A stretch of DNA of 64,000 bases, from contig JAFQGD010000057.1 in NCBI GenBank assembly GCA_017398355.1, positions 1-64,000 of the forward strand. Direction: 5' to 3'. Made by a program: the position numbers and the translations under genes. Shown piece after piece: positions 3,201 through 31,459 of this stretch. Every line of letters begins with the position of its first letter. Within the stretch, counting starts at the first letter, position 1. The DNA is from Akkermansia sp. (GTDB lineage Bacteria > Verrucomicrobiota > Verrucomicrobiia > Verrucomicrobiales > Akkermansiaceae). The notes beneath the pieces are model-generated. The model was not told the DNA's origin. It ran no database searches and saw only the letters and a program-made list of their open reading frames with translations.

Positions 3201-6200
3201 AAAGCGCTGTGAACCCTTACCTATCTTAACCAGGTTGACGTTGGTATCAAGCATGGAGGATGTGGTATACACATCTGTACCGTGAATCACGAGAGTTGCA
3301 GCCTCACCATCCTCGGATACAACCTTCAAGCGCCCTGCAAGGCCGGCAATATTGTAGGTATCTGCATCTGCACCCAATTCCAGAAGGCTCTTACCGTATT
3401 CAGAATAGCCACCCTGAATCTTTGCATTGACCAAGCTGTTCGTGTTGTTAGCACGCAACGTGCGCCCCGCATAAATCAGCCACGTACCCTCGAAGTCCGG
3501 GTTGGCGGTGTTGAGTTCTACCACGGCTTGGGCATCCTCCGCACCACTTGCAACAAGAGTAACGTTGGATGACTTCTCGCCGGTCACGGCTGAATTGAAC
3601 ACGATACCATAGGCTCCATTGTCCATGAGGTTAGAAGCGGGGCATGCAAAATCAACACCGCTTTCAAATGTGGTATAGCCGCTTACACCCATACCGGATG
3701 TTTCCCCCCCCATGGTGATGTAATTGTACACAGCAGAAGGAACTGCACCCTCTTCTCCCATCTTAACATCGTTAAGATCGAACCAAAGGTTGGCTCCTTG
3801 AACTTCAATATCACCCCCATTGGCATCCTGGGCTTCCACCCGGGTGAAGGTCACATTACCCAAAGCACCTTTCAGCGTCAACTTATGGCCATTGCTTATA
3901 TAATCACCACCAAGACGAAGAGTGGTGGCAGCACCTGCAGCATAAATGGTAGTTGCATCCGTCAGGATCGTATCCGCCAAAATTGTAGCGGTTGCACCAC
4001 CCGTCATCGACAAAGCAGCATCCATACCCAACTCATCCCCAAAGCTACCGGCACCAGCCAACTCCAAGACGCTGCCGGCTGTCATGATTTCAGCTGCAAC
4101 CGTCCGCTCGATGGCCAATCGAGAACCGGACTTAATGGCGAGCCTATCAATAGCACGGAGCTTATCAGCCTCTTCCGTATTGGTAGAGCTAAGTTTGATA
4201 GTCGTCTTGCCGTCAAAAACGACACCGTTAAGGGATTCGCCCATAATGTTGGTCAAAACATTGGTCCGAATACCGCCTGCAGCGATTTCCAAATCACCAT
4301 CACCTTCAATGATTCCATCCCAGCTGGTATCGGTGAGCGTTTCTAAACGCAAGGTTGCACCATTCAGCAACTCTACCCCGGAGCCGAAGTATACCTGTCC
4401 GGTGGTGGCAAAGGTAGTCTTAACACCATCCACCACAAGTTTGCCTTCTGTATTGGCACCCGTAGAGATAATACCTGAGCCGGTGAACTTGTAGCCATCG
4501 CCATCAACGGTCATGTTGTTAATCAACACGGTTCCATATACAGACACCGTTTCACCTTGTCCGGTGAAGGTTACACCGGAGTTCTGCACAAAGCGACGGG
4601 CTTCACCATCTTCCAAGAAGTTGGTTTCAGTGCTATTGGCCCACATGTCAGAATCATCCTGCACATTCCATACCAGGTTGTCAGAGGCTCCAACTTTCTC
4701 ACAGCGGGTAATGGATACATACCCGTAGTAGTTCTCCGCGCTATAGTTTGCAGTATAGCCATCTTCCAACATGGCTACCAAATTCACCCTGTCAGCATCC
4801 GGCGTGCCGCCACCTTGCAAAATGGCATACTTGGAACCATTTTCACCACCTTCTACGGTAATGTTCAGAGTCCCTTCTGTCTTAAGAACCTTGACAAACT
4901 CCTGATTATCCGCTACTTCACTACCCACAGGAACCGCATCTGTCAAATCGAAGAGCAAAGAGCCGGATCCAACAGTCGAAATGGTATCCAAACTTACGGA
5001 ATAATTCCCGCTCTTCTTATCCACGGCAAGATAGCCTCCCTTTACAACGGCTTTTTCCAAGTGAGTCGGAGAGCCAAGGAACAGCGTACCCGTCCCCACC
5101 TTCTCAATGGAACCAGAGGTAGACACAAGGCTGATTTCGCGAGCTACGCCATTTTCACTGCTGGCTTCATCCACAATCCACCCTTGGGTATTGACGGTCA
5201 CATTGCCCTGCAACTTCAAATCACGCTGGGTACTCCAAGAGGCTGCATCATTGAGGATACCGAGCGTTGCACCGTCTTTGATGTTGAGGATGAGGCTTTG
5301 ATCGCCGTCTCCCTTCTCCACGCCTTTATCCCCACGGTCCACATGACCGATGCCGTCTTCCCCCACGTTGAATATAGCACCACCATTGATATTGACAGTC
5401 ACATAAGACCCCTGCCCGGAATCACGCGTTTGAAGCCACATACCCATCATATTCAGCACGCCGCCATCATTCACATTCATCTCTTTTTTGTGAGTAACGC
5501 TGCTGACAACAGAAAGGTTGGAGAGGCGCAGGAAATTCAGTGTTCCGTTAACTTCATAAATGCTGTGATTATTGCAACTGAACAGGAAATCTGCAGCCGC
5601 ATACGACTGTTCTACGGGAGTGGGTGCTTCTGCCAACACTTGATTGATACCGTTTACCGTCATCGTACTGCCGGCATCTATCATCATCGTGCTTTTTTTC
5701 TCACCACCATTGGCTGATGCGCGCAGAGTGGTCGTTGTCACGCGGGCATTATCCGACACAATAAGCGTCGTTTCTTCATAGCCCGCACCGAGGGACATGC
5801 CCAACGATGTCATATTCTTGATGACACCATTTTTACCGCTCAAAACCAAAGTACCGCACTGTGTAGTAACAGAACCATCGTATTCGCTCATATCACCGGT
5901 CAAAATCACCGTGCCATACCCTGCCTTGTACAAGCTGGCATTAGCATAGGTACCATTCTCCGAAAAAGCATTATAGATGCGCCCTGTATAGGTTGTTTCC
6001 AGAGCAGAGTATGCATTCTCGCCGGTCTCGGCAGAGAGATAAAGTTCACCATAAGCAAGGAAATTGCCTGTACCGTTAATTGCAATATCAGCATCGACGG
6101 TAATCTTAGGATCAGAAATAAGATTATGATGAGCAGGATCAGCGGATACCAAGCTACCACCCTGTAAGGTAATCGTATCTATGCCGCTCAGATTCGCAGC

Positions 6201-24596: not shown

Positions 24597-26732
24597 ATGA
24601 AACTGAGAGTATTGACAAGCGTGTTGTTGCTAGCGGGCAGTGCGCTGGCCCAAATGCCGGGCACGCCGGCAACCCGAGTGCAGGTGGAGAAAGCCACCAC
24701 GGGGTTGGACATGATTTTTCGCCGGAGCATCGGGCATGTGGAAGCTATCCGCAAGGTGCAGGTGCGCTCCGCAGTGGAAGGATTTTTGATGGAAGCCAAA
24801 TTCAAGGAAGGCAGCATTGTGCAAGAGGGGGATGTGCTTTTCGAAATCAACCCCATTCGCTACAAAGCAGCCTTTGCCCAAGCGCAAGCCACCTTGAAAG
24901 AAATCAACGCGCGTATCATCTACGCTGAAAATAACTACAAAAGGCTCAAAGCTTTGGCTAGCAGCCATGCAGCTTCTGTTGAAAATGTTGAAAGCGCCCT
25001 TGCCCGATTGGAAGGCCTGAAAGCTCAAAAAATTGAAGCAGAAGCCAACCTAGTCAAAGCAGAAAAGGATTTGAACGATTGCACCATCCGCGCAGAAATC
25101 ACCGGGCGCATTGGTCGCAGGGAATTCTCCAAAGGCAACTATATCACCCAAGGTGAAATGCTGGCCACCATCACCCAGACAGATCCCATCTATGTGCGTT
25201 TCCCGCTCAGCCAGAGCGATGTGAACGGCATTTTCCGCGGGCCCAAGGAAATTAGCAACGTGGCCAACGTAAAACTGACCACGGCAGATGGCCGCGGATA
25301 CCCCGATGCCGGCCACATTGAAATTGTGGACAACCTGCTCACCGGCAATACGGATACCTACACCCTGTGGGCCAAGTTCGACAACAAAAAGCAAGTACTC
25401 ACCCCGCGTGGCATCGGCGCGCTCCACATTTCGCTGACGAATACGGCAGAGGTAACGATGGTGCCCCTCACCGCCGTGCATCATGATGAAGTGGGGGCAT
25501 ACGTATACACCGTGGACAACGAGGGCAAAGTAGCACGCCGTGAAGTCATCTCCGGCACAGTCCAAGGGCGCATGCAATCCATTTATGATGGGCTGCAACC
25601 CGGCGAAACCGTCATCACCGATGGTTCCCACAAGACCCGTGTGGGAGCTACGGTCATGCCCGTCTACCCGGAAGAACAAAAACTGGCAACAAAGCCGGGC
25701 CGGGCCAGCACGCAAAATGAAGAAGCAACTGTGGTGGCAGAAATTGCGGAAGCGAGCCCCATAAGCGACCCCACCGTGTTGGTGTGCCAAGGCGCGCGGG
25801 TAGAGGCCATCAACCGCGTCAACATTCGCCCGCTGGTACAAGGGGTGTTGGAAGAGCCTGCCTTCAAGGAGGGCGACCGCGTGAAACAGGGAGACGTGCT
25901 CTTCAACATTGACCCCACCCGGTACAAAGCCACGGTAGACGCGCAGAAAGCCAAAATCATGCAGCTCGATGTGCTGATTGCGGATGCCACCAGCAAATAC
26001 GAACGCCAGCAGCAACTCATCGCCCGCAATGCCACCAGTAAGGATGATGTGGAAAGCGCCAAGGCGACCCTGGATGAGCTGCAAGCCCAGAAAGAAAAGG
26101 CCCAGGCCGTCCTTGCAGTGGCAGAAGATGACCTCTCCCGCTGCACGGTGCGTGCCGCAATTGATTCCCGCATCGGGCGCGTCAACTTCTCCAAAGGCAA
26201 CTACATCACCGATATCAAATCCCCGCTGGCTACGCTGGTGCAGCTCAGCCCCATTTATGTGCGTTTTTCACTGAGTGAAAGCAGCATTCTCTCCCACTTC
26301 GGCAATGTGGAAGACCTCATCCGCGATGCAGAAATCACCCTCGTCACAGCCAATGGCAAAACATTCAGCGAAAAGGGCTGCGTATCCTTCTGCGATAACG
26401 TGATTCAGCAAGCAACCGATACCCAAAACCTGTGGGCCATTTTCAACAATGCCGAGCGAGAGCTGCACCCCGGAGGTGTAGTGACGATACGTGTCAAACG
26501 CAAAGCAGACATCACCGTACCGGGCATCCCGGCACAAGCGGTGCAAGTAGATACACGCGGCAAATATGTATACCTGCTCAAAAATGGGCGGGCCGTGCAA
26601 ACGCGCATCCACTGCGGCACGGCAGATGAAAATGGCATGGTACCCGTCTTTGCCGGTTTGGAGAACGGGGCCAAGGTCATCACCACCCAGTTGGCAGAAT
26701 TGGAAAACGGCACTCCGGTACAAGCTAAGTAA
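24597..26732 (+). CDS. Tandem-fused RND periplasmic adaptor (two MFP modules), 711 aa
   Basis: Links an RND pump to an outer-membrane channel. A signal peptide (LTSVLLLAGSALA) without lipobox is followed by two complete membrane-fusion-protein modules, about residues 25-365 and 395-711. Each repeats the order lipoyl half (GFLMEAKFKEGSIVQEGDVLF; GVLEEPAFKEGDRVKQGDVLF), coiled-coil hairpin, second lipoyl half (GRIGRREFSKGNYIT; SRIGRVNFSKGNYIT), then DPIYVRFPLS/SPIYVRFSLS and a C-terminal membrane-proximal domain. Normal adaptors are about 370-400 aa with one module. The linker (KPGRASTQNEEATVV) is short. The RND pump gene follows after 21 nt. The modules are clearly diverged, so this is an old fusion rather than a recent duplication. 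Confidence 0.9.
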   Translation: MKLRVLTSVLLLAGSALAQMPGTPATRVQVEKATTGLDMIFRRSIGHVEAIRKVQVRSAVEGFLMEAKFKEGSIVQEGDVLFEINPIRYKAAFAQAQATLKEINARIIYAENNYKRLKALASSHAASVENVESALARLEGLKAQKIEAEANLVKAEKDLNDCTIRAEITGRIGRREFSKGNYITQGEMLATITQTDPIYVRFPLSQSDVNGIFRGPKEISNVANVKLTTADGRGYPDAGHIEIVDNLLTGNTDTYTLWAKFDNKKQVLTPRGIGALHISLTNTAEVTMVPLTAVHHDEVGAYVYTVDNEGKVARREVISGTVQGRMQSIYDGLQPGETVITDGSHKTRVGATVMPVYPEEQKLATKPGRASTQNEEATVVAEIAEASPISDPTVLVCQGARVEAINRVNIRPLVQGVLEEPAFKEGDRVKQGDVLFNIDPTRYKATVDAQKAKIMQLDVLIADATSKYERQQQLIARNATSKDDVESAKATLDELQAQKEKAQAVLAVAEDDLSRCTVRAAIDSRIGRVNFSKGNYITDIKSPLATLVQLSPIYVRFSLSESSILSHFGNVEDLIRDAEITLVTANGKTFSEKGCVSFCDNVIQQATDTQNLWAIFNNAERELHPGGVVTIRVKRKADITVPGIPAQAVQVDTRGKYVYLLKNGRAVQTRIHCGTADENGMVPVFAGLENGAKVITTQLAELENGTPVQAK

Positions 26733-26753
26733 ACCCTACATTCTCTTCCATCT

Positions 26754-29700
26754 ATGTTCTCACAATTTTTCATTTATCGTCCCAAGTTTGCGTTCGTCAT
26801 CTCCATCCTGATGATGCTGGCAGGGTTGCTTTGCATCAGCAAGATGCCGATATCAGAATACCCGGAGGTATCGCCGCCCACGGTATCAGTAAACATGAAC
26901 TACAACGGTGCCAGCGCCGAGGAATTGGCCCAAGTAGTGGCAGCCCCGGTGGAGGAACAGCTGGTGGGGATGGATGACCTGCTCTACTTCTACTCCTCCT
27001 GCGCCAACAACGGCTCCTACTCCCTGACCCTCATTTTCGAGACCGGCACCAACGACGACATGGCCATGATTAACGTGTCCAACGCTATCAAGGCTGTGGA
27101 ATCCAAATTGCCGGCAGAAATCAAGCAAAACGGCTACCGCATCCGCAAGCGCTCCGGCGACATGCTGTGTTTCATCAACTTCATGTGCGATGAAAACAAG
27201 ATGAGTGTGCTCGACCTCTCCAACTGGTTGCGCATGAATGCCAAAGACCGCATCGGCCAGGTGAGTGGCGTATCCAGCGTAGATATTATCCCCAACCGCA
27301 ACTACGCCATGCGTATTTGGATGAATACCACACGCATGAGTGCCCTCAACATCACCCCGGCGGATATCCGCAAGGCTATCGAAGCACAAAACATCCAAGC
27401 TGCTGCCGGCTCCGTGGGCTCGGAAGACGAACAGTCGTACGCTACTTTCAAGGTGACGGCTACGGGCCGACTCAAAACCGCAGAGGAATTCGGCAACATC
27501 ATCGTAAAACGCGGTGAGGGTGGTCATGTGACCAAGTTGAAAGATATCGCCACCATTGAACTGGGAGCCGAGCGTAACTCCGGCTACAGCCGACTCAATG
27601 GCAAGGATGCCGTGGGGATGATTATTCACCGCAACAATGAGGCCAACGCCTTGGCCACTGTGCAGGCAGTGCAAACCATGATGAAAGAAATTGAAGCCAC
27701 CATGCCCGATGGCATGGAATGGCAAATGGGCTATGACCCCACCCAAGCCATCTCTGCCACCATGGAAGAAATCATCATCACCTTGGGGCTGGCTCTCTTC
27801 CTAGTGGTGCTGGTGACCTTCATTTTCCTGCAAGACTGGCGCGCCACGCTTATTCCCTCATTGGCCATTCCGGTGTCTTTGCTGGGAGCCTTCGTCATCA
27901 TGTACGCATTGGGCTACACGATTAACGTGCTCACCATGTTCGGCCTCATCCTCGTGATTGGTTCACTGGTGGATGATGCCATTGTGGTCGTGGAAAACGT
28001 GATGCGACTCATCCAAGAAGAAAAGCTCAGCCCGCGGGAAGCTACGATTAAGAGTATGAAACAAATCACGGGTGCCATCATCGCCACCACGCTGGTGACG
28101 CTGGCGGTGTACGTGCCGATAGCCTTCTATGGCGGCATGGTTGGTGTGATTTACACGCAGTTCTCCGTGACCATGTGCGTGGCGCTCTGCATTTCCACCT
28201 TCAACGCCCTTACCCTCTCCCCTGCTCTGTGTGCCCTGATTTTGCGCCCGGCAGGTGTGAAACAGAGTAAACTCTCCGAGTGGATGTTCAAGCCCTTCAA
28301 CTGGTTTATGGATGTGTGCCGCCGCATCTACTTATGGGGGGCAGGCATTTTGGTCCGCAACGCCTGGTTGACGGTACTGCTGCTGGCAGCCGTTCTTTTT
28401 GGCAACTACATCTACTTCTCAGGCTCCCCCTCTTGGTGGTATGATATTTTCCACAGCAAAGAACAGCCTGTTGCCCAAGCGCCCGCCCGTGGCAAAGCCC
28501 CGGCCAAGAAGAGCTTCGACATACTCGACCTCATCGCCCCGGATGCTATGAACAGCTCATTCATCCCCACGGAAGATAAGGGTACGCTCTTCGTGATGAT
28601 TACCATGGAAGGCACGGCCACCGCCAAGCAGCGCACAGATAAAGTGCTGCGCCAGCTGGAGGCGCGCATGAAAAACATCCCCGGCATTGCAGCCGTTACG
28701 GCACAGAGCGGCTACAGCTTTGCCAGTGGCTCCGGTGAGAGCCGCGCCATGATGATTATTCTGCTGGACCACTGGAGCAAACGCACCACACCGGATTTGC
28801 ACGTGTCAGCCATTGCAGCCAAGGTCAATGCCGCCTGCGCAGACATCCCCGAAGCCTCCATCATGGCCGTGACTCCGCCCGCCATCCAGGGGCTGGGTAT
28901 CTCCGGCGGTATTTCTATGGTGCTGCAAGCCTCCGGCGATACCACGCCGCTGGACATGGGCAACATGGTCAAAGAAATTCAGGCGCGTCTGCAATCACAC
29001 AGCGACCTCGTCTCCCTCGTACGCAGTGAGTACAATGCAGAAAACCCGCAAATTCGCTTGGAAATCAACCGCGAAAAAGCACAATCTCTCAATGTGCCGG
29101 TAAACACTATTTTCAGCACCTTGCAGAGCGTGATGTCGTCCCTCTACGTCAACGATTTCACCCTCAACGGATTCAACTTCAAGGTTATGATGCAGGGTGC
29201 CACCCAAGACCGCCGCACGGCGGAGGACATTCTCAACCAAATGGTGCGCAACGAAAAGGGGGAAATGGTACCGCTCTCAGCGGTATGCTCCATTTCCCAC
29301 ACGGTGGGGCCGGATTCCTACGGGCGTTTCAACCAGTACATGAGCGCAGATATCACTGTGATGGCTCAGCCCAACGTGGGCTCCGGGCAAGTCATGAAGC
29401 TCATTGAGGACACCATCGCCCAAATCAACAAGGAAGAGCGCGCTGCCGGCCACGACCGCCAGTGGATGGTGAGCTGGAAAGACCTTTCCTACCAAGAACG
29501 CCAGAACGATGGCAAGGTGGGCATCCTCGTGGGCTTAGCCATGCTCTTTGCCTACCTCTTCCTCGTGGCGCAGTATGAGAGCTGGACCACCCCGGTACCG
29601 GTGATGCTCTCGGTGAGTGTGGCCACGTTGGGCGCCTTGATGGGGGCACGCCTCTTCGGGCTCACACTGTCCATCTATGTGCAGCTTGGCCTGCTGATGC

Positions 29701-30032
29701 TCATCGGCCTGGCCGCCAAGAATGCTATTTTGATGGTGGAATTCAGCAAGGAAGACCACGAAACAGGCACACCGATACGCCAAGCCGCTATCAACGGCGC
29801 AAGCCTGCGTTTCCGCGCTGTGCTTATGACGGCCATTTCCTTCATCTTCGGTGTGTTCCCCATGGTAGTCGCCACAGGTTCCGGCGCCGCCAGCCGGCAG
29901 GAAATCGGCATCACCACCTTCTTCGGCATGACGCTGGCCACCATCTTCGGCATTTTCATGGTGCCGGGTCTCTACGCAATCTTCGCCCGCATGCGCGACT
30001 GGACCGCCGCGAAAATCGGCCTGAAAAAATAG
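26754..30032 (+). CDS. RND multidrug efflux transporter (HAE1/AcrB family)
   Basis: Inner-membrane proton-driven pump, 1092 aa. The N-terminus ([18 protein letters not shown]) and the periplasmic start AISEYPE-like [15 protein letters not shown] are typical. The proton-relay residues are visible: Asp407-Asp408 in [13 protein letters not shown] (TM4) and Lys989 in [13 protein letters not shown] (equivalent of AcrB Lys940). It is about 40 residues longer than AcrB, mainly through a Lys/Ala-rich insertion near residue 565-595 ([13 protein letters not shown]) at the periplasmic entry of the second half. Paired with the tandem adaptor; no TolC-like outer-membrane factor is in the operon, so one must come from elsewhere. 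Substrate unknown. Confidence 0.95.
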
Positions 30033-30110: not shown

Positions 30111-30347
30111 ATGAAAATTACCCCCGTTCTTCGTGCCAAGAAATCTCTGTTACCTGCCACACTTCTGCTGACCGGTAGCACCCTCATGGCTGGCTGCGAC
30201 CGCCACACACCCCCGGGTGATGTACCCTATACCGACAATGCTCAGACATCTGCAGATGATACACAGCAACTTATCGGTAAATATATAATCTCCCACCCGG
30301 AGCCACCCAAGCCAAAGCCCCAGTCTCCCCCCGCTACTGACGAATAA
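30111..30347 (+). CDS. Small lipoprotein coupled to a radical SAM enzyme
   Basis: A 78-aa protein with a lipoprotein signal peptide (LLPATLLLTGSTLMAGC, acylated Cys29) and a 50-residue mature part: an acidic, polar stretch containing DVPYTDNAQ, then LIGKYIISH and a Pro/Lys tail (PEPPKPKPQSPP). No family is recognised. Its TAA stop shares one base with the ATG of the downstream radical SAM/SPASM gene (TAATG), so the two are translationally coupled. That arrangement resembles small substrates next to radical SAM maturases. The single Tyr-Thr-Asp could suit an aromatic crosslink, but this is speculation. It lies 78 nt after the RND pump gene; a weak promoter (CATATT near 30082-30087) may serve it. 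Confidence 0.68.
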   Translation: MKITPVLRAKKSLLPATLLLTGSTLMAGCDRHTPPGDVPYTDNAQTSADDTQQLIGKYIISHPEPPKPKPQSPPATDE

Positions 30348-31459
30348 TGACCGGGCCACTCACCCTCACTCTTTGTCTTACGCACCAATGCAATTTGCGC
30401 TGCCGCTATTGCTATGCGGGGCGCAAGTACCGCAGCACCATGTCGCAAGCAACGCTGGAGCGAGCAGTCGACATCGCTTTGGATGAAGCGCAGCGCCTTG
30501 GACGGCATCTTGATATTTCCTTTTTTGGGGGCGAGCCTCTGCTGGAGTGGGAGCTTTTGCAATACGGCTGGCAGTATGCCACGCAAAAAGCAACCAACAG
30601 CAAGGTACGCCTCCGCTTCGGCCTCACCACTAACGGCACACTCCTCTCCCAAGAAAAATCAGCTTGGCTTGTTGAGCGCGATTTTCTGATTGGTCTGTCG
30701 CTTGATGGCTCTCCTGCCATGCACAACACGAACCGCTGCTTTGCCAACGGCAGCGGTAGCCATACACAAGCAAGCCGGGCTCTCAGGCACCTGCAGCAAT
30801 ATCCCTCTGCTCGCTTCAAAATTATCTGCGTAGTCGATCCGCACAATCACCTATACCTATGCGAGGGGGTGCGCTGGCTGCACCGTCACAAGGTCGGCAC
30901 CATCGGGCTCAATTTCGACTACTGGAGTCCGTGGTCGGATGCTCAGTTTGAGTCTCTTGCCCACCACATGCAACTTTTGGCCGACCAAGTTTTGGACTCA
31001 TACCGCGCCGGCACTCCCTGGCAAGTGGAATGCTTCGCGGATAAAATCCGTAGCTATATTGAGCAACCCCAACATTCCTGCAACCGCTGCCAACTAGGAG
31101 AACGCGAGCTGGCTGTATCGGTCGATGGGCACTTTTTCCCCTGCTCTCGGCTCGTAGGCGTGGGGGATGACCCCGCCATCACATTCGGAGATGTGCACAC
31201 AGGCATCAACCGAGCGCGGCAACAATTTATCATCGCCACACGTGGCAATGCCACACCGGAGTGCCGCTTGTGTGCACTGCGCTACCGCTGTATCAACTCC
31301 TGTGGTTGCAGCAATTTTGCATCGTCCGGGGCCATAAACCAAGTATCCCCTTTCCTTTGCAACCTTCAACAGCTCATCATACGGCTGGCCGATACCTTGG
31401 CAGAAACGCTCTACGCTGAGCGCAACCCTGCCTTCATGCAGCAATTTTACGGCCAATGA
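30347..31459 (+). CDS. Radical SAM/SPASM-domain protein (putative peptide maturase)
   Basis: A 370-aa radical S-adenosylmethionine enzyme. The [4Fe-4S]/SAM motif CxxxCxxC is Cys15, Cys19 and Cys22 in CNLRCRYC, followed by FFGGEPLLEWELL (SAM-binding GGEP). The C-terminus has a full SPASM pattern for two auxiliary clusters: CQLGERELAVSVDG..PC (CX12GX4C), CRLCALRYRCINSC (CX2CX5CX3C) and a last Cys in SPFLCN. SPASM proteins include sulfatase maturases and RiPP maturases. The N-terminus resembles the peptide-modifying branch more than classical anSME, but a sulfatase-maturase role cannot be excluded since no sulfatase is in view. The 1-nt overlap with the upstream lipoprotein makes that protein the natural candidate substrate. 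Confidence 0.87.
   Translation: MTGPLTLTLCLTHQCNLRCRYCYAGRKYRSTMSQATLERAVDIALDEAQRLGRHLDISFFGGEPLLEWELLQYGWQYATQKATNSKVRLRFGLTTNGTLLSQEKSAWLVERDFLIGLSLDGSPAMHNTNRCFANGSGSHTQASRALRHLQQYPSARFKIICVVDPHNHLYLCEGVRWLHRHKVGTIGLNFDYWSPWSDAQFESLAHHMQLLADQVLDSYRAGTPWQVECFADKIRSYIEQPQHSCNRCQLGERELAVSVDGHFFPCSRLVGVGDDPAITFGDVHTGINRARQQFIIATRGNATPECRLCALRYRCINSCGCSNFASSGAINQVSPFLCNLQQLIIRLADTLAETLYAERNPAFMQQFYGQ

Follow-up and report, generated by a model that had tools for sequence, protein, structure and literature searches.

A small lipoprotein encoded beside a SPASM enzyme characterises, as the name of the model indicates, the Bacteroidota system TIGR04133 (rSAM_w_lipo). ChlB, a SPASM enzyme of about 375 aa, was crystallised together with the leader of its precursor, as the title of the PDB entry states (PDB 9gm3, 9gmc), and no paper on this RiPP enzyme was found in the open-access literature that we searched. 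PapB joins Cys to Asp/Glu (PMC9413430), and TvgB is a cyclopropylglycine enzyme with a TVGG-repeat precursor, in which an aliphatic-plus-Gly motif is used and no Cys is needed (PMC9062424). The open-access literature searched contained no paper on radical-SAM RiPPs of Akkermansia or on RiPPs with a lipobox, and the wider literature may differ in this respect.

We analysed a gene pair of this general kind in a 64,000-nucleotide stretch of Akkermansia sp. DNA (the whole stretch is hereafter called the window). The features of the pair are as follows.

30111..30347, + strand: small lipoprotein, proposed modified substrate, 78 aa, MKITPVLRAKKSLLPATLLLTGSTLMAGC-DRHTPPGDVPYTDNAQTSADDTQQLIGKYIISHPEPPKPKPQSPPATDE (open reading frame; leader profile; dN/dS 0.08)
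30111..30155, + strand: leader-like N-region MKITPVLRAKKSLLP (consensus MKIxPxxxxKxxLYP), ahead of the signal-peptide core (alignment)
30156..30197, + strand: hydrophobic core and lipobox LMAG-C29, signal peptidase II site (sequence; Cys invariant in the alignment)
30204..30230, + strand: first, degenerate core motif H-T-P-P-G-D-V-P-Y (sequence; motif consensus)
30264..30287, + strand: core motif Q-Q-L-I-G-K-Y-I (Q-x-Phi-x-G), proposed modification site (motif analysis)
30291..30344, + strand: Pro-rich tail SHPEPPKPKPQSPPATDE (sequence)
30347..31459, + strand: radical SAM/SPASM enzyme, 370 aa, beginning at the radical SAM barrel with no N-terminal extension (Pfam, NCBIfam, AF2)
30389..30412, + strand: CxxxCxxC (Cys15, 19, 22), SAM-binding [4Fe-4S] cluster (invariant in 28 homologues)
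31079..31360, + strand: SPASM cysteines C245/C248, C266, C306, C309, C315, C319, C321 and C338, auxiliary clusters
31301..31309, + strand: clade signature C319-G-C321, within C-x2-C-x5-C-x3-C-x-C-x-N (54/58 in the clade, 0/49 outside)

The coordinates of both genes agree with those of a preliminary description of this DNA, which had also noticed that base 30347 belongs to both the lipoprotein stop codon TAA (30345-30347) and the enzyme ATG. Its expression "translationally fused" was loose, however, as the actual arrangement is a one-base stop/start overlap (TAATG) and no fusion. Compared with the pair of the 95%-identical relative L060, dS was ~0.30 and dN/dS 0.08 for each gene, indicating that the small ORF encodes a genuine protein under constraint and is not a chance ORF. 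The 9.4-kb block surrounding the pair is common only to the near-identical L060 region and not to other enzyme loci. Immediately upstream lie RND efflux genes (window 24597-30032), encoding a 711-aa protein that resembles two tandem HlyD/AcrA-type adaptor units and then an AcrB-type pump. A plasmid search for the lipoprotein/enzyme pair gave no match.

The window lipoprotein matched no Pfam family and, at E 0.01, no NCBIfam model. Its lipobox reads L-M-A-G-C29 and is followed by 49 residues; judged by sequence, 135 of the 139 family members fit the bacterial lipoprotein pattern of n-region, hydrophobic core and lipobox Cys. In the alignment the N-termini have MKIxP...YP in common before the hydrophobic core and lipobox, and in a search of its own genome the window protein matched the leader profile at E 9.6e-11. 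We propose that this N-region serves as an enzyme-docking element. The Pro-rich tail is probably a disordered spacer. The single YTD to which the preliminary description had drawn attention is not a conserved feature of these proteins; what is conserved is the leader together with the Q-x-Phi-x-G motif. At the position of the degenerate first motif, the nearest relative, L060, has Q-T-P-P-G-D-V-P-Y.

The mature parts are strongly divergent yet repeat Q-x-[LIVM]-x-G. For 91 non-redundant mature parts, shuffled sequences would give 9.3 occurrences of this motif, and 111 were observed (z 32); it was carried by 63 proteins, against 8.9 expected. Its density was 35 times that of large ORFs in the same loci, which is the fairer comparison, the motifs having been defined after inspecting the sequences. 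Even a relaxed core motif is missing from 22 of the 91. No further Cys is present in 61 of these 91 mature parts, and thioether chemistry is therefore unlikely for most of them; it is unlikely for the window protein too, because its only Cys is that of the lipobox.

Membership of the enzyme in the radical SAM/SPASM superfamily is indicated by CxxxCxxC, a seven-Cys SPASM pattern and the fold, and PF04055 was matched at 3e-13. As the preliminary description had read from the sequence, the enzyme has CxxxCxxC at Cys15/19/22 and a full SPASM set. In 28 homologues the CxxxCxxC is invariant, as are the SPASM cysteines C248, C266, C306, C309, C315, C319 and C338 and one extra Cys, C321; C245 is found in the window enzyme but is not invariant. 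The AF2 model (pLDDT 91.5) has CteB (Z 37), anSME (Z 32) and ChlB (Z 32) as fold neighbours. No N-terminal RRE domain was found, since the window enzyme starts at the barrel, with CxxxCxxC at residue 15.

In a 107-row enzyme tree rooted by midpoint, the partner-bearing enzymes all fell into one group of 58 rows (support 97/90). The pattern C-x2-C-x5-C-x3-C-x-C marks this group, being present in 54 of 58 rows inside it and in 0 of 49 outside; the exceptions are Fibrobacter enzymes, which have C-x4-C-x-C. The group also lacks the N-terminal extension of CteB-type enzymes: its members have 10-46 residues up to CxxxCxxC, whereas most relatives outside it have ~100 or more. Twelve of the 58 rows were labelled partnerless, some of them with lipoproteins bearing another leader (L174, L188). 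At L174, a Fibrobacter relative, a 194-aa lipoprotein with a different leader lies directly upstream (4413-4997), and its Ser-rich mature part contains IDLVGG.

Of 76 genomes of the genus Akkermansia, 49 had the enzyme at E <= 1e-20. In 40 of 51 enzyme loci (37 by the N-terminus profile within 1.3 kb and three by inspection), small exported proteins, from one to several and almost always lipoproteins, are encoded immediately upstream; their genes often stop only a few bases away from the first codon of the enzyme. Among the 37 profile-positive loci, 16 have one copy and 21 have two to four. At L107, L109 and L110 the neighbouring lipoproteins have a leader that diverges from the others (YPT or YPA). 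For the other 11 loci (L063, L078, L083, L085, L086, L088, L089, L092, L093, L104 and L105), leader lipoproteins are encoded elsewhere in the same genomes, several as tandem arrays. The preliminary description had made its reading depend on small lipoproteins with an aligned core occurring next to homologues; they adjoin most orthologues and, for the others, are encoded in trans; the leader is common to them and so is the repeated motif.

The number and state of the partners vary among loci. At L108 (genome G190) at least ten leader-bearing genes lie upstream of one enzyme, the array being interrupted by a run of N, and some of these genes encode secreted proteins of about 200-410 aa that carry this leader too. 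At L114, L115 and L142 (G193, G220 and G208) the enzyme copies are truncated to roughly 46-135 aa and stand alongside intact leader lipoproteins; that is, the enzyme gene has decayed or recombined while the substrates persist.

We consider it unlikely that the enzyme acts on something else and that the lipoprotein is a co-transcribed envelope receptor, immunity or carrier protein. The one piece of direct evidence linking the two genes is their adjacency, and the partners in other phyla include larger proteins, as described below; both would fit such an arrangement. But tandem, sequence-diverse lipoproteins with a common leader and a repeated short motif resemble precursors, no third gene recurs beside the enzyme across the contexts compared, and leader proteins are found in trans where the enzyme has none adjacent.

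The leader also tracks the enzyme among genomes. When whole genomes were searched with the leader profile (E <= 1e-5), matches were found in 44 of the 49 genomes with the enzyme and in 4 of the 27 without it (Fisher p 7e-11, where related genomes and species are not independent samples). Of the four exceptions, three are incomplete MAGs and the fourth, G208, retains an enzyme fragment beside the lipoprotein. The genome of the window (G000) has only one further leader match, a decayed remnant that we rejected as a second substrate. The remnant, on contig C36 (18078-18128, L156), reads MKIEPSANKSTPLYPTL and then runs out of frame, suggesting the former presence of another substrate locus in this genome, and it adjoins a small conserved ORF that is also an enzyme neighbour in L068.

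Some of the leader conservation could serve export because the segment sits in the n-region of the signal peptide, and at L108 it also precedes the larger secreted proteins. Nevertheless, that MKIxP...YP is a signal which this group uses for export or sorting independently of the enzyme, with the lipoproteins being ordinary ones, seems still less likely than a different target. Within the genus, genomes without the enzyme have hardly any profile matches, a dependence not expected of an export signal, and the leader marks enzyme-adjacent genes in other taxa. The comparison of enzyme-positive with enzyme-negative genomes and the cross-taxon profile test thus both weaken an explanation by a generic signal peptide.

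The cross-taxon test came from a scan of GTDB genomes, in which enzyme relatives were found in MAGs labelled Bacillota, Bacteroidota, Myxococcota, Planctomycetota, Lentisphaerota, Fibrobacterota and Campylobacterota; the phylum labels are those of the records, and some bins may be wrong. Many of these non-Akkermansia enzymes adjoin an exported protein starting with K-[IV]-x-P...Y-P or P-L-Y-A. When 5,754 ORFs from 77 non-Akkermansia loci were searched with a profile built from Akkermansia leaders only, the top 12 were enzyme-adjacent genes from nine loci, and the genes so marked belong to Bacillota, Bacteroidota and Myxococcota. In rumen Clostridia the partners are small lipoproteins encoded in tandem; a motif defined post hoc, [VI]-x-[LYFM]-x-G, occurs in them 15 times where 0.7 would be expected.

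Other non-Akkermansia loci encode a partner of 270-375 aa. These larger partners, frequent in other phyla, are mutually alignable and have no obvious copy of the motif. They matched no Pfam or NCBIfam family, a PDB profile search gave nothing convincing, and with a poor AF2 model (pLDDT 63.6) Foldseek returned nothing below E 0.3. On a divergent branch, in Planctomycetota/Verrucomicrobiota MAGs (L186, L189 and L190), the genes downstream of the enzyme encode a membrane protein of 100-130 aa and a protein resembling signal peptidase I, the latter possibly a dedicated leader protease.

The pair is probably a two-gene RiPP-like module in which the lipoprotein is the precursor modified by the enzyme. 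That the lipoprotein is the substrate had been proposed in the preliminary description, and adjacency, the shared leader, the repeated motif and co-occurrence all point in this direction. At the gene level the locus has what a RiPP locus has: a small precursor beside a maturase, a conserved leader and a repeated core motif. From the paired genes, the conserved leader and motif, the co-occurrence, the selection acting on both genes and the fold, we infer the substrate relation, leader docking and an order of events as follows. The precursor would have three parts, namely the MKIxP...YP leader, the lipoprotein signal sequence and a short mature part that is predicted to be mostly disordered and to carry one to several X-x-Phi-x-G motifs. 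The enzyme would recognise the leader without an RRE domain, which is plausible by analogy with ChlB, an enzyme of similar size crystallised with its precursor's leader. In the cytoplasm, a 5'-deoxyadenosyl radical and two auxiliary clusters would modify residues of the motif (QQLIG in the window protein). Sec export, lipidation and a signal peptidase II cut at Cys29 would follow, and the same cut would remove the leader, so that the envelope would finally carry a peptide that is both modified and anchored by a lipid. Candidate chemistries are epimerisation, a C-C or C-N cross-link, and desaturation or cyclopropane formation at an aliphatic residue.

A wider reading is plausible but tentative: the loci may form a multi-phylum class of lipid-anchored RiPPs, with the leader inside the signal sequence and signal peptidase II as the leader protease, in which an RRE-free C-x-C SPASM clade carries out a new modification, independent of Cys, at repeated X-x-Phi-x-G motifs and some genomes hold many cis and trans substrates. 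The two-gene module can be put to the test as an enzyme with its substrate, in a major gut genus and in relatives of that genus. It would link lipoprotein export with the chemistry of RiPPs, would point to RRE-free leader recognition, and would predict that surface lipoproteins undergo a radical modification for which no Cys is needed. The chemistry is tractable because the five-residue motif is fixed and a genome supplies many natural substrates. Annotation pipelines miss the partner proteins because these are in neither Pfam nor NCBIfam.

How does this locus compare with known systems? The enzyme scored below the cut-off of every NCBIfam model tested. The preliminary description had remarked that the lipoprotein family of the Bacteroidota rSAM/lipoprotein pairs looks different from this one. 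TIGR04133 gave 41.8 bits for the enzyme against a cut-off of 425, and the lipoprotein matched no NCBIfam model, that system's own lipoprotein model included, so that membership was rejected. A close anSME homologue, which would have spoken against its reading, was not found either: TIGR03942 gave 111.8 bits against 349.45 and no sulfatase is among the flanking genes examined, the likeness to anSME lying in the fold and the cluster cysteines. The best model was PapB (NF047865), with 208.6 bits over residues 6-332 against a cut-off of 340, which does not place the enzyme among PapB ranthipeptide maturases. Nor does the window protein have the Cys-x3-Asp/Glu thioether site of a PapB substrate. 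That the enzyme is an anSME or a PapB-type thioether/formylglycine enzyme of known chemistry is very improbable: PapB is its best match and its fold is near CteB and anSME, but it scores under both cut-offs, about two thirds of the non-redundant mature parts have no Cys and the window substrate none besides that of the lipobox, and no sulfatase or CX3D peptide is adjacent.

The PapB-family ranthipeptide maturases give the best sequence match, which covers the whole SAM/SPASM region, and have the three-cluster architecture in common with the enzyme; all 28 aligned members matched NF047865 (best E 2.9e-69). Unlike PapB substrates, the Akkermansia ones are mostly Cys-free, carry X-x-Phi-x-G and are exported lipoprotein precursors, and the enzyme has the extra CGC. 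CteB, the SCIFF maturase (PDB 5wgg), is the closest solved structure (rmsd 2.9 over 342 residues) but has ~90 more N-terminal residues and a Cys-rich substrate. ChlB has only 19% identity to the window enzyme and a different precursor. TigE (PDB 8vpo) ranks lower by fold (Z 25). The TvgB precursor likewise has a repeated aliphatic-plus-Gly motif, although its repeat is TVGG and lipoproteins are not mentioned in the report (PMC9062424). With scores below the NCBIfam cut-offs and no paper found in the open-access literature searched, the enzyme-substrate system is apparently undescribed, and apparently widespread; it is a radical SAM/SPASM maturase with its precursor, as in these systems, but with a leader, a motif and an enzyme clade of its own and with lipoproteins as precursors.
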